64,000 nucleotides of DNA from an uncultured Alphaproteobacteria bacterium. GTDB lineage: Bacteria > Pseudomonadota > Alphaproteobacteria > Rs-D84. This document shows, piece after piece, positions 12,104-60,226 of this stretch. A program made the translations under genes and the position numbers. The stretch lies in the NCBI GenBank assembly GCA_944389515.1, contig CALXMQ010000001.1, forward strand, positions 71,079 to 135,078, read 5' to 3'. Position 1 is the stretch's first letter. Each line of letters starts with the position of its first letter. The notes under the pieces were generated by a model. It made no database searches and had not been told where the DNA came from. It saw only the letters and a list, made by a program, of their open reading frames with translations.

Positions 12104-12375
12104 TTTATTTTGTGGACATAATATATCGTGAATTTTTGTATATGAAAAATTTTTTCTGGTTGATATGCCAATGAAATTTTTGGGATTGGTGCATTTGTGT
12201 TTTTTTTGTATATAATTTTTTGGATTTTCACCGGGGGGTACGGATAATAATTTATATGGTATTGGGGTAATCGCAATCAGTACAATTATTAAAATGCCAT
12301 ATTTGCTGAACATTGGTTTTATTGCTGTTTCAATCAATTCTGGATTTGTATCAGCTTGTTCTGTTTTTAACCCTT
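12101..12375 (-). pseudogene. Relic of a VTT-domain (YqaA/DedA-like) membrane protein
   Basis: The minus-strand frame reads KYGILIIVLIAITPIPYKLL followed by SVPPG, matching the re-entrant loop signature of VTT/SNARE-associated membrane proteins (usually xTPIPYKxxTIxxG). The preceding ELIETAIKPMFS fits the helix before it. No N-terminal membrane part is present and the frame after the motif is not family-like (IQKKHKCTNPKNF), so this is a decayed fragment. Confidence 0.4.
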
Positions 12376-12433
12376 GCATTATATCGTATGGCGCGCTAAC
12401 ATAAAAAATGTCAGTGGGTGTTCCACTGATGGG
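12364..12433 (+). repeat. 70-bp repeat upstream of leader RNA copy A
   Basis: 68 of 70 bases match 13512-13581. It contains TTGCAT and TAACAT 17 nt apart, which could be a conserved weak promoter, and a hairpin AGTGG gtgtt CCACT whose only change in the other copy keeps a G-T pair. Both copies lie upstream of the same structured leader, so it is probably the first part of that leader or its promoter. Confidence 0.65.
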
Positions 12434-12476
12434 CTTAAGAACCCTTTGATCGCGTCTGTAAGGACGTAAAACAAGT

Positions 12477-12583
12477 CCAACCTGTTGTATGGTTGGAGTG
12501 TGGTGAATATATTGAATAAGCCACGCAATTCGATCAATTGTTCTTAAACTCCAACCACCTGAATATTCCGGTGGTTTTCTTTT
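12477..12583 (+). ncRNA. Structured leader RNA type 1, copy A
   Basis: Strand a CCAACC (12477), strand b GGTTGGAG (12491-12498), hairpin P2 GTGG/CCAC with loop TGAATATATTGAATAAG (12500-12524), hairpin P3 AATT cgatc AATT (12527-12539), the joining segment GTTCTTAAA, strand c CTCCAACC (12549-12556), then a terminator hairpin ACCACC/GGTGGT with a T-rich tail (12554-12582). Strand b can pair with a or c, and c shares ACC with the terminator arm. The gene at 12615 follows by 32 nt. Covariation with copies B and C supports the fold. Confidence 0.75.
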
Positions 12584-12614
12584 ATTCAAAAACAAAAGAA
12601 AAGGAGATAAGAAT

Positions 12615-13076
12615 ATGAAAAAATATTTAATAATCGCCGGTGTCACAATCGGGGGGATGGCAGCAATTCCGGCATATGCAGTCACAAAATGTGTGCCGTT
12701 GGGTGGTGAAATAAAATATGGGGCATGTGAAAATCATACCATGATTAGTTTTGGCACAGCAGGCAGCGCAGATTGGTCTGCAACATGCGAGATAGGAACA
12801 GAAACAGTTGATTTATCAGGCGTTGCTGTGTGTGCCCAAGATAAGGGTGGCTTAAACGGTACGGCGCTGGACACGATTAGTGTATCTACAACAGAAACAG
12901 ATAACAAATATTGTTGGTGCAAAATGACAAGTCCGGCGGTGTCACAATGGATCAATGTTGCGTATGGATCTACGTTGAGTAGTACTGGGTGTACACGTGG
13001 CTGTGCCGTAAATTGTGCTGATTTTTTGACCAATTCATCTGTATATACAGCAATGTTTTCAAACCTTTCTGATTGA
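12615..13076 (+). CDS. Exported cysteine-rich protein, WCWCKM family (cassette 1, first gene)
   Basis: 153 residues. A strong AAGGAG site precedes the ATG, then a signal peptide (MKKYLIIAGVTIGG...IPAYA). The mature part begins VTKCV, has WSATCEIGTETVDLSGVAVC, the hallmark YCWCKMTSPAVSQW, then CTRGCAVNCADFL and an MFSNLSD end. Paralogues with the same order lie at 13792, 26413, 54862 and as the C-terminal half of 26967. Conserved Cys suggest disulfides in the periplasm or outside. The function is unknown. It overlaps the region of the next gene's ribosome site, so the two are co-transcribed. Confidence 0.82.
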   Translation: MKKYLIIAGVTIGGMAAIPAYAVTKCVPLGGEIKYGACENHTMISFGTAGSADWSATCEIGTETVDLSGVAVCAQDKGGLNGTALDTISVSTTETDNKYCWCKMTSPAVSQWINVAYGSTLSSTGCTRGCAVNCADFLTNSSVYTAMFSNLSD

Positions 13077-13087
13077 TGGAGATTATA

Positions 13088-13459
13088 ATGAAAAGAATAT
13101 TGATTTTGTTTACGTTATGTTTTCCTGGGGTGGCGATGGCGTTGGATAGTGGCGTTGTTGTTGTACCACCGATACAAATAATGAAAACACCGTCTACATC
13201 TTGTCCGGATAATTATATCGCAATAGAAGAAGAATATATGACAATATCAAATGGGACTGTATGTTCGACAGGATATGTGTCCGCCGGGGTGGCGGTAAGT
13301 TGTCTGATTAGTGACCCAGGTGGTTCATGCATAATGTATGCGCCGGCAAATGTTACGTATACTGATAAAACAGGTTCGTATGTGTATACCGAGGCATGTC
13401 CAATGACGGATTCGGGTCTGGTTGTTGTTCCAGGTCGTCCCGTGCGGCCAATAGAATAG
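13088..13459 (+). CDS. Exported CIMYAP-family protein (cassette 1, second gene)
   Basis: 123 residues from the ATG at 13088 with GGAG 7 nt upstream; in-frame TTG and ATG codons at 13073-13076 lack a proper signal. The signal peptide ends FPGVAMA. The mature part reads STSCPDNYIAIEEEYMTI, CSTGYVSAGVAVSC, GGSCIMYAPANVTYTDKTG, SYVYTEACPM. The partner families at 14284 and 55323 share the SCP..Y.AI start and the C..YAP...GSYV.TE.C end. It is always paired with a WCWCKM protein, so the two may act together. The function is unknown. Confidence 0.8.
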   Translation: MKRILILFTLCFPGVAMALDSGVVVVPPIQIMKTPSTSCPDNYIAIEEEYMTISNGTVCSTGYVSAGVAVSCLISDPGGSCIMYAPANVTYTDKTGSYVYTEACPMTDSGLVVVPGRPVRPIE

Positions 13460-13492
13460 TTTTTATGTATTTATTGTTTTGTGTTGATTATA

Positions 13493-13517
13493 AAATCCCC
13501 CTATGTGGGGATTTTTA
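13493..13517 (+). terminator. Intrinsic terminator of cassette 1
   Basis: AAATCCCCC TAT GTGGGGATTTTT immediately upstream of the second 70-bp repeat. Confidence 0.85.
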
Positions 13518-13581
13518 ACCCTTGCATTATATTGTATGGCGCGCTAACATAAAAAATGTCGGTGGGTGTTCCACTGATGGG
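13512..13581 (+). repeat. 70-bp repeat upstream of leader RNA copy B
   Basis: 68/70 identical to 12364-12433. Beyond the repeat both copies continue into GGG...ACCC and GCGTC... hairpins that keep pairing while the sequence changes, before the three-stem core. Copy B has an expanded GCGTCG/CGACGG-type arm (13602-13650). Confidence 0.65.
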
Positions 13582-13659
13582 GTGTCGAAACCCTGATACC
13601 AGCGTCGTTATAAGATATGGCGCATAAATGCGCTGTTTTTGTTGCGACGGTAAATAAAA

Positions 13660-13764
13660 CTCCTGATTTATTTGGTCAGGAGGGTCACGAATATCAAATA
13701 AGTGACACAATTCTGGTAATTGTTTCGAACCTCCTGACCACCAAAGAATTTGGTGGTTTCTTTT
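13660..13764 (+). ncRNA. Structured leader RNA type 1, copy B
   Basis: Strand a CTCCTGA (13660-13666), b GGTCAGGAGG (13674-13683), P2 GTCAC/GTGAC around GAATATCAAATAA (13684-13706), P3 AATT ctggt AATT (13709-13721), joining GTTTCGAA, c CCTCCTGACC (13730-13739), terminator GACCACC/GGTGGT plus TTTCTTTT (13736-13764). Relative to copy A the outer stem changes from GGTTGGAG to GGTCAGGAGG with matching changes in both a and c. The P2 stem also changes on both sides while its loop is kept. Confidence 0.78.
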
Positions 13765-13791
13765 AACCAAGAAATAAACAGGAGTTTTGAT

Positions 13792-14268
13792 ATGAGAAAA
13801 CATTTAATAATCGCCGGTATAATTTGTTCTGTGACAATGCCATCGGCATATGCAATATCTGTGACGCCAGTTGGGGGGACTGGGGTTACAAAGTGTGTGA
13901 AATTAAATACATCAACCAGTTGTACTTCACTAAGTACGAATAATAATAGCAGTAATTGGAAGGCAACGTGCAAAACTGGGACAACGGCTGTTCCTGTCCA
14001 GGGTGTTGCGGTTTGCGCCAGTACCAGTGCTGCACAATTTTCAACGCAAACAGAATTGACTGTGTCCAATACAGATTCACAAAATAAACAATGTTGGTGC
14101 AAAATGACAAGTCCGGCGGTGTCAGATTGGGTTAAACCAGGTGGTCCTAATGGATTTACAACTGCATTAGATTGTCGGTATGCGTGTTCTAACTCTTGTG
14201 CAGGTGCGATAGAGAATTCATCCGGTGATAAATTTATTATCGCAATGTTTGGAACGTTGTCGGATTAA
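13792..14268 (+). CDS. Exported cysteine-rich protein, WCWCKM family (cassette 2, first gene)
   Basis: 158 residues from the ATG at 13792, which follows a CAGGAG site; the longer frame from 13750 runs through the leader RNA and is not expected to be translated. The signal peptide is MRKHLIIAGIICSVTMPSAYA. The mature protein contains VTKCVKLNTSTSC, WKATCKTGTTAVPVQGVAVC, the core QCWCKMTSPAVSDW, then CRYACSNSCAGAIE. It shares about half its residues with the 12615 protein across the core. It probably folds with three or four disulfides. The role is unknown. Confidence 0.82.
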   Translation: MRKHLIIAGIICSVTMPSAYAISVTPVGGTGVTKCVKLNTSTSCTSLSTNNNSSNWKATCKTGTTAVPVQGVAVCASTSAAQFSTQTELTVSNTDSQNKQCWCKMTSPAVSDWVKPGGPNGFTTALDCRYACSNSCAGAIENSSGDKFIIAMFGTLSD

Positions 14269-14283
14269 AAAAGGGGGGCGCAG

Positions 14284-14586
14284 ATGAAAAAATGTATATT
14301 TTTTATTTGCTTTTTAATGCCAATCGGTGCATTTGCGTCGACATTGTCAACGTCATGTCCGTCGGGGTATGTTGCAATCAAGGAAGCATATTTGTCCATT
14401 ACATCGGGGGATTGTCCGTCAGGCAGCACAGCAGCAGGTGAAACAGATTCTTGTTTGCTGGCATCCCCAGGTGGGTCGTGTATAATGTATGCACCGGTAA
14501 ATGTTACGTATACTGATGACACAGGTTCATATGTTTTTACAGAACCATGTCCGATGACCGATATAGGGGTTGTCCCAGTTCAATAA
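14284..14586 (+). CDS. Exported CIMYAP-family protein (cassette 2, second gene)
   Basis: 100 residues: signal MKKCIFFICFLMPIGAFA, then STLSTSCPSGYVAIKEAYLSI, CPSGSTAAGETDSCLL, GGSCIMYAPVNVTYTDDTG, SYVFTEPCPM. It is closely similar to the 13088 protein, so cassettes 1 and 2 are tandem duplicates that include the leader RNA. It lies 15 nt after its partner gene, with a G-rich ribosome site. Confidence 0.8.
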   Translation: MKKCIFFICFLMPIGAFASTLSTSCPSGYVAIKEAYLSITSGDCPSGSTAAGETDSCLLASPGGSCIMYAPVNVTYTDDTGSYVFTEPCPMTDIGVVPVQ

Positions 14587-59810: not shown

Positions 59811-60062
59811 TTATTCATCATTTTTACCCCGAATTGGGCGATATTTGTTGTAATTACGCGCCAATAACATCATAAATCCATTTTGAAATATTCTCTCTAA
59901 TACCTGTGCCGGTATCAGCATTTTTCCACTTTCGTATTTACCAATATATTTTGTTGTTGTACCCAACATACGTGCCGCATCACGACGATTTATTCGTGCA
60001 TTTTGTCGTGCGTGTGACAATGCGTCACCAAAGTATGCAGAATCTACTAATACTACCTTCAT
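59811..60062 (-). CDS. Small XRE-type helix-turn-helix regulator
   Basis: 83 residues. HTH in positions 12-60: FGDALSHARQNARINRRDAA, RMLGTTTKYIGKYESGKM, then a short basic tail (NYNKYRPIRGKNDE). It is close in style to small phage-type repressors. GGGGGA precedes the ATG. The mRNA begins with leader RNA type 1 copy C, ending in a terminator 20 nt before the ribosome site, so expression should depend on attenuation. It is the only type 1 target here that is not an exported protein. Confidence 0.8.
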   Translation of the reverse strand: MKVVLVDSAYFGDALSHARQNARINRRDAARMLGTTTKYIGKYESGKMLIPAQVLERIFQNGFMMLLARNYNKYRPIRGKNDE

Positions 60063-60083: not shown

Positions 60084-60185
60084 TAAAAAATACCGCCGTG
60101 ATGAAAGGCGGTTGGAGGTTAAGAACTATCGAAGAATAGTGCCGCTTATTCAATATATTCGCGTGCCCTCCAACCGATGTTGGAG
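60084..60185 (-). ncRNA. Structured leader RNA type 1, copy C
   Basis: Read on the minus strand: a CTCCAAC (60185-60179), b GGTTGGAGGG (60175-60166), P2 CGC/GCG with loop GAATATATTGAATAA (60143-60163), P3 ACTAT tcttcg ATAGT (60140-60125), joining TTCTTAA, c CCTCCAACC (60118-60110), then terminator CCGCC/GGCGG with TATTTTTTA (60111-60084). P3 and the terminator arm both differ from copies A and B yet pair perfectly. Strand c overlaps the terminator arm by two C. Confidence 0.78.
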
Positions 60186-60199
60186 TTTTTTGTGGGTTT

Positions 60200-60226
60200 A
60201 TTATACCCAACATTGGTAATCGTCAA
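60200..60226 (-). promoter_or_regulatory. Promoter for the leader RNA and XRE gene
   Basis: On the minus strand TTGACG (60226-60221), a 15-nt spacer and a perfect TATAAT (60205-60200). The spacer is shorter than ideal. The start near 60193 places copy C at the 5' end of the transcript. Confidence 0.5.

Follow-up and report, generated by a model that had tools for sequence, protein, structure and literature searches.

Leaders with copy-specific complementary words in a reduced gut alphaproteobacterial genome: probable transcription attenuators related to sRNA-Xcc1 (RF02221)

The 64-kb stretch of DNA analysed here (hereafter the window, in which all positions are counted unless a contig or locus is named) comes from contig CALXMQ010000001.1 of a genome of 947,067 bases (G000) from the GTDB order Rs-D84, that of Candidatus Enterousia, gut alphaproteobacteria with reduced genomes (PMC12306168). 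It carries three copies of a structured RNA leader, A and B on the forward strand and C on the reverse strand, in front of two paralogous exported-protein genes and a gene for a small helix-turn-helix (HTH) protein, respectively. A first-pass annotation of this DNA had described in copy A three alternative strands (a, b and c), two hairpins, one of them with the loop GAATATATTGAATAA, and an intrinsic terminator sharing the letters ACC with strand c; all of these are present, as is the same plan in two more copies at 13660-13764 (+) and 60085-60185 (-). The part so described is real, but its upstream half had been missed: the full leader begins about 70 nt further 5', with a promoter, a hairpin (Pa), two short words (w1 and w2) and a further hairpin (Pc), which in copy A occupy 12374-12466. 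Word w1 is the loop of a hairpin, Pb, whose general form is GGGG-w1-CCTC. The features of the three copies and the genes behind them are as follows (MFE, minimum free energy).

12374-12379 and 12397-12402, +: copy A, promoter-like -35 (TTGCAT) and -10 (TAACAT) boxes
12411-12429, +: copy A, 5'-terminal hairpin Pa of the RNA, from the sequence and the MFE fold
12435-12442, +: copy A, word w1, TTAAGAAC, matching w1' at 8/8 complementary positions, in the Pb hairpin loop
12446-12452, +: copy A, word w2, TTGATCG, complementary to the P3-loop word w2'
12453-12466, +: copy A, hairpin Pc, from the MFE fold
12476-12482, +: copy A, strand a, partner of b, from the MFE fold
12491-12498, +: copy A, strand b, partner of a or c, from P1 covariation
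12499-12525, +: copy A, hairpin P2, with the conserved loop GAATATATTGAATAA at 12505-12519, from covariation
12526-12540, +: copy A, hairpin P3, holding word w2' (CGATCAA, 12531-12537), from covariation
12540-12547, +: copy A, joiner, which is word w1', GTTCTTAA, complementary to w1
12549-12556, +: copy A, strand c, partner of b, the last 3 nt (ACC) of which begin the terminator
12554-12583, +: copy A, intrinsic terminator, with ACC in common with strand c
12615-13076, +: target gene of copy A, exported protein of 153 amino acids, Shine-Dalgarno (SD) sequence AGGAG at 12602-12606, no Pfam match
13091-13459, +: second gene after copy A, encoding a small exported protein that contains Cys, without a Pfam match
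13559-13764, +: copy B, whole leader; core matched by the covariance model at G000:C1:84751-84817
13559-13577, 13585-13591 and 13596-13602, +: copy B, 5' half (Pa, w1 and w2)
13660-13666, 13676-13682, 13684-13706 and 13708-13722, +: copy B, middle part (a, b, P2 and P3)
13722-13729, 13731-13739 and 13738-13764, +: copy B, 3' end (w1', c and terminator)
13792-14268, +: target gene of copy B, exported protein, paralogue of 12615-13076
60085-60185, -: copy C, with a at 60179-60185, b at 60168-60174 and P2 at 60141-60166
60126-60139, 60119-60126, 60110-60118 and 60085-60111, -: copy C, 3' part (P3, w1', c and terminator)
59811-60062, -: target gene of copy C, small XRE-type HTH protein of 83 amino acids, Pfam HTH_3 (PF01381), E=1.2e-5

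Our analysis showed that the core of this leader (helix P1, formed by b and c, with P2, P3 and the joiner) is a widespread element. A pattern built from the P2 loop and the joiner matched five places in the 0.95-Mb genome and none in the reversed control; it also matched in 25 of 99 relatives, at least two of these cases (L006, L023) looking like chance. A covariance model of the Enterousia core (R1; 69 positions, 19 pairs) found 19 strong copies in G000 (E<=1.4e-9) and 24, 35 and 50 copies in three relatives, with up to 50 per Mb in sister genomes. The covariance search of related genomes, which had been put forward as a check, thus returned many copies with strong covariation: R1 matches 143 of 156 same-genus genomes and 19 of the 23 genera of the order, with weaker matches in other families of the class. 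Covariation was measured on 106 distinct sequences over the three helices, with 500 shuffles and slid versions of the helices as controls, and the earlier proposal of selection on RNA structure was borne out. The core helices are paired in 98.3% of cells, 14 of the 19 pairs change on both sides, and 279 cells are altered on both sides as against 83 in shuffles; none of the 500 shuffles and no slid version came near the core in paired fraction, two-sided changes or covariation score. P1 is 99.8% paired, with two-sided change in five of nine pairs, the P2 stem 99.4% (five of five) and P3 94.7% (four of five); among the unpaired parts, conservation is highest in the P2 loop, GAATA-N-GAATAA. A -10 box with at least five of the six letters of TATAAT lies just 5' of Pa in 238 of 251 copies (43% in shuffled sequence) and a perfect one in 146 of 251 (4.4% in shuffled sequence), while a terminator-like hairpin with a T-run follows the core in 250 of 259 Enterousia copies.

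The joiner had been described as conserved (GTTYKWAA), which proved incorrect: it is a variable word, since its letters differ from copy to copy and an upstream complement changes along with them, and a conserved joiner acting as aptamer was rejected on the same ground. The partner of w1 is the joiner (w1'), that of w2 the P3 loop (w2'); the words are 7-8 nt long and copy-specific, and both arms change together. By best match, w1 is complementary to its joiner at 7-8 of 8 positions in 184 of 195 copies, compared with 334 of 1,934 combinations in which joiners were swapped between copies, and w2 has at least 6 nt of complementarity in 166 of 195 copies, compared with 160 of 1,934 cross-paired controls. 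When w1 was placed by the Pb motif alone, without use of the joiner, the match was perfect (7/7) in 178 of 239 copies and in 0.4% of cases with another joiner; many of the non-perfect cases look like one-base register errors of the motif. All four Watson-Crick pairs occur at single w1 positions.

The words also differ between close paralogues. Pairs from the same genome with proteins at least 80% identical share either word in 1 of 12 cases, compared with 8 of 10 cross-genome pairs (Fisher p = 0.0016; the pairs are few and non-independent). Three loci of G000 (L069, L073, L078) encode proteins 97-99% identical behind quite different yet internally matched words, L278 and L288 of genome G048 have identical proteins and different words, and the array L062 consists of five near-identical 240-bp units with different word combinations, altered in both arms. 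Word pairs are all distinct in three genomes (107/107) and nearly so in G000 (17/18), which is weak evidence when taken alone, since random words would also seldom coincide; it is the contrast between paralogues and cross-genome pairs that carries information. In certain tandem pairs, namely L097, L182, L025, and units 3 and 4 of L284 (and nearly in L285), the words agree between units, with Pa and the promoter hardly more alike than between unrelated copies. In L025, unit 1 has the P2 motif and no gene, and unit 2 has the gene and the words and has lost the P2 motif. The tandem pairs suggest that units may communicate through their words.

The predicted folds fall into two states. In the MFE fold of the full leader, the long-range w1 helix, the a:b helix and the terminator are found together in 227 of 256 copies and a:b in 244, and the w1 helix and b:c coexist in none of the 256. 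The alternative fold consists of b:c, P2, P3 and Pb, and the last letters of c also begin the terminator. The leader therefore has the arrangement of a transcription attenuator, in which the terminator overlaps a mutually exclusive antiterminator helix 5' of a gene. We propose that the two states control termination, the OFF and ON states being assigned from the geometry of the pairings. With w1 and w2 paired to w1' and w2', b would be left to a, c would be free and the terminator would form, turning the gene OFF. If the 3' words are free of the 5' words, P3 and b:c would form instead; b:c uses up the 5' end of the terminator's stem, and the gene would be ON. The input would be an RNA with matching words, whether from a tandem unit with identical words, a terminated leader or the 5' arm of the leader itself, rather than a small molecule, since two complementary upstream words point to RNA-RNA pairing and not to a small-molecule aptamer. 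A protein may bind the conserved P2 loop.

The link to a known family comes from relatives of the window copies. In Rfam, copies A, B and C have no credible match, and none to RF02221 (sRNA-Xcc1; gathering cut-off 53 bits) even at E<=5. At the position of the core, however, RF02221 matches the distant alphaproteobacterial locus L322 (66.2 bits, the sole distant locus found with R1 to exceed the cut-off, with L314 at 51.7) and 11 more distant alphaproteobacterial loci, with E values for the others of 2.5e-5 to 0.28, and intermediate alphaproteobacterial loci align end to end with positions 1-87 of the RF02221 model. In the other direction, R1 hits 11 of the 22 canonical RF02221 loci, each at the corresponding place, with a best E of 1.3e-9. 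RF02221 itself was found in 58 of 398 sampled Pseudomonadota genomes, G000 among them. Because relatives match RF02221 in both directions, the window copies are best described as a divergent branch of a known family. The earlier proposal of a cis-regulatory leader with overlapping antiterminator and terminator, present in many copies before exported-protein genes, thus stood, while that of an unrecognised class with an unknown ligand was weakened by the RF02221 matches of the distant loci. Two copies in the same genome (L078:1131-1219 (-) and G000:C4:35379-35469) are nearer to canonical RF02221 and were missed by R1, so that the G000 total is at least 20; the latter scores 38.2 bits with RF02221, has the words and a terminator and precedes a PAP2 phosphatase gene.

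Canonical RF02221 and the Enterousia element have in common a junction of P2 (internal loop AUACAAUA / GGAAUAA, with an upper hairpin) and P3 that is closed by helix P1 and followed by the joiner, and also the 5' words w1/w2 (canonical 77% versus 16% in the control; Enterousia 86% versus 15%). In the distant relatives, the P2 'loop' is likewise an internal loop, GAAUA(C/U)AAUA / (G)AAUAA(G), under a small hairpin. Its strands are swapped in L308, L309, L320 and L321 (AAAAUAA...GAAUAU, not GAAUAU...GAAUAA), as would be expected of a three-dimensional motif that fits in both orientations. The Enterousia copies differ in scoring far under 53 bits and in having the P2 upper hairpin reduced to a loop. 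They also differ in output: a terminator follows the core in one of the 22 canonical loci, against nearly all Enterousia copies (see above), whereas the word pair recurs at the start of the next gene in 77% of canonical loci (control 10%) and in 12% of Enterousia copies (control 11%). One example is L354, where CCGAAAA-GGAG-CAACAAGAC-CATG at the gene start faces GTCTTGTTGCGGTTTTCGG in the core. The genes differ too, being exported and small HTH proteins in Enterousia, and phage antirepressors and SymE in canonical RF02221, whose targets include the Bro-N, KilA-N, P22_AR_N and Rha phage regulators. With the words present for a third time where the following gene begins, the canonical core is predicted to block translation, and canonical sRNA-Xcc1 looks like a self-addressed antisense RNA with words matching the adjacent gene. 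The Enterousia branch would then have dropped the third word pair and replaced the translation-block output by a terminator; the loss of the gene-start words and the gain of the terminator are its defining difference. In 15 of the 22 canonical loci there is a terminator-like hairpin between w2 and the core. The loop CACCCGNYAG recurs in this hairpin in L329, L338, L340, L343 and L354; it is in part the complement of strand b (CGGG), and the hairpin may play the role of strand a in canonical loci.

The pairings, their covariation and mutual exclusivity, the terminator, the promoter, the position before a gene and the homology to RF02221 are established at the level of sequence analysis, and on this basis we consider it probable that the leader is a transcription attenuator run by RNA-RNA pairing and a divergent, much expanded branch of the sRNA-Xcc1 family. 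Several points weigh against this view. No usable RF02221 threshold is reached by copy A, B or C, and the proposed homology runs through a chain of models. In about a quarter of the canonical loci, no third word pair stands out clearly. The upstream words are gone from copy C, where 60194-60208 reads GGGTATAATAAACCC, yet its core and terminator are kept; L069 and L070, near-identical duplicates of copy C, both still have them. The fold predictions ignore co-transcriptional kinetics, proteins and tertiary contacts. Lastly, the P2 loop is conserved beyond the needs of base-pairing and could be a site for a ligand or a protein.

This last point is the starting point of what we regard as an unlikely alternative, a riboswitch or protein-responsive leader in which the P2 loop and the P1/P2/P3 junction bind a metabolite or protein and the words are only variable pseudoknot helices that shape the pocket or tune the balance of switching. 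In its favour, no unpaired part is more conserved than the P2 loop, which can still be recognised as an internal loop in distant taxa, including those where its strands are swapped, and the occurrence of many leaders ahead of genes of a shared type (exported proteins, small HTH proteins) looks like a regulon. No metabolite common to the target genes is evident, however, and a ligand pocket would have no need of words that recur at the start of the next gene in canonical loci. Paralogues with proteins at least 80% identical rarely share words within a genome, whereas copies from different genomes usually do, and unit 2 of L025 kept its words and gene without the P2 motif. A purely trans-acting small RNA gene, with the neighbouring gene incidental, is how sRNA-Xcc1 has been annotated: published accounts discuss it as a virulence-linked trans-acting sRNA (PMC12444791, PMC12189769), treat it in Xylella as possibly trans-acting and vesicle-borne (PMC12189769) and report an 88-nt processed form in X. 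campestris (PMC2996969), and gene-less tandem units do exist in Enterousia. Against it, most Enterousia copies lie 40-60 nt from a same-strand start codon with an SD sequence, and the words are private to each locus and, in canonical loci, match the start of the adjacent gene; we therefore hold this explanation to be very improbable here. The available portions of the open-licence accounts of sRNA-Xcc1 do not mention w1 or w2.

We give as little credit to a mobile or recombination element (a transposon end, an attC-like site or a dispersed repeat) whose folded DNA matters and which lies near genes by chance. There are indeed many dispersed copies and tandem arrays of 240-bp units, and sRNA-Xcc1 is integron-encoded in Xanthomonas, where it lies in cassettes 5' of symE and a divergent regulatory mechanism is proposed by the authors (PMC12444791). 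The geometry relative to the gene is nevertheless constant, a promoter and a terminator accompany nearly all copies, and the words vary from copy to copy with their complementarity kept. Transposon ends, which had been named as the alternative, are thus unsupported: the words of the two arms change from copy to copy, as terminal repeats do not. No integron integrase scored above the cut-off in 30 relatives, and an alignment of five gene-bearing copies, inspected by eye, showed no common insertion boundaries or target duplications; transposon ends, IS110 bridge RNAs and retrons were set aside on these grounds. As for an integron attC site (GTTRRRY / RYYYAAC with an integrase), the joiner is GTTYYKAA-like, its inner letters vary freely, and IntI was not found above the cut-off in the 30 genomes.

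The attenuator reading can be compared with two known systems. In phages P1 and P7, translation of the antirepressor mRNA is blocked by c4 RNA, which acts around the ribosome binding site of that mRNA (PMC12197685). Like canonical RF02221, C4 (RF01695; c4-2, RF02944) has two antisense words facing two words around the start of the adjacent gene, in most cases one for an antirepressor. The Enterousia copies are unlike C4 in using a terminator and in having no antisense target words at the ribosome binding site. Moreover, sRNA-Xcc1 stands outside the C4 clan (CL00128), and no match to the C4 models overlapped any core in a cmscan of 60 loci and the window stretch. Membership in C4 was therefore rejected: canonical RF02221 is comparable to C4 in how it works, not in demonstrated membership. 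In antisense-controlled attenuators of the pT181 repC type, exclusive pairings choose between terminator and read-through, and an antisense RNA is the input. The Enterousia leaders would make the same choice by exclusive pairing, but their antisense words share a transcript with their targets, whereas the pT181 type uses the opposite DNA strand; no homology is claimed.

It is possible, and we suggest it tentatively, that the words form a private address code, in which the 20-50 leaders of a genome carry mutually orthogonal pairs, paralogues are driven to new words after duplication, and gene-less tandem units with the same words act in trans on their neighbour. This would amount to a scalable, RNA-only regulatory network with one line per gene in a genome of 1 Mb, its ancestor being a phage-type RNA that controlled an antirepressor. 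The attenuator reading would provide sRNA-Xcc1, an orphan Rfam family, with a testable mechanism. In the reduced genomes of these gut bacteria, an antisense module would have become a transcription attenuator and risen to 20-50 copies, controlling surface proteins and small regulators, and its private words would offer naturally evolved orthogonal RNA switches.

In the great majority of Enterousia copies the start codon lies 40-60 nt 3' of the core. Among the downstream open reading frames of 195 copies, the largest clusters are XRE-type HTH proteins (58), exported proteins of the KMTSPAVS type (43) and Cys-rich exported proteins (29), the remainder being other exported proteins, lipoproteins and small proteins. 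The exported proteins with the signature KMTSPAVS are a large family behind leaders, with no significant Pfam match. The HTH gene of copy C has five near-identical genomic copies (window 59811-60062, L069, L070, L073 and L078), each with its own leader, and among these leaders there are three different word sets. Within the window, 12368-13460 and 13517-14586 are a tandem duplication of leader and two exported-protein genes. Three contigs from a viral collection (L232, L233, L234) carry a copy, at least one of them before a gene family also present in Enterousia; given this shared family, they may be mis-binned host DNA or prophage. Tandem leader arrays with a spacing of about 200-245 bp, and with a promoter and terminator for each unit, occur at L062, L051, L052, L053 and L284, where a small HTH-like gene is found only behind the last unit. 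A dispersed repeat, CATTGCGAGGGAGCG...CGACCGCGGCAATCC, lies 5' of several leader arrays of G048 (L284, L286, L097).
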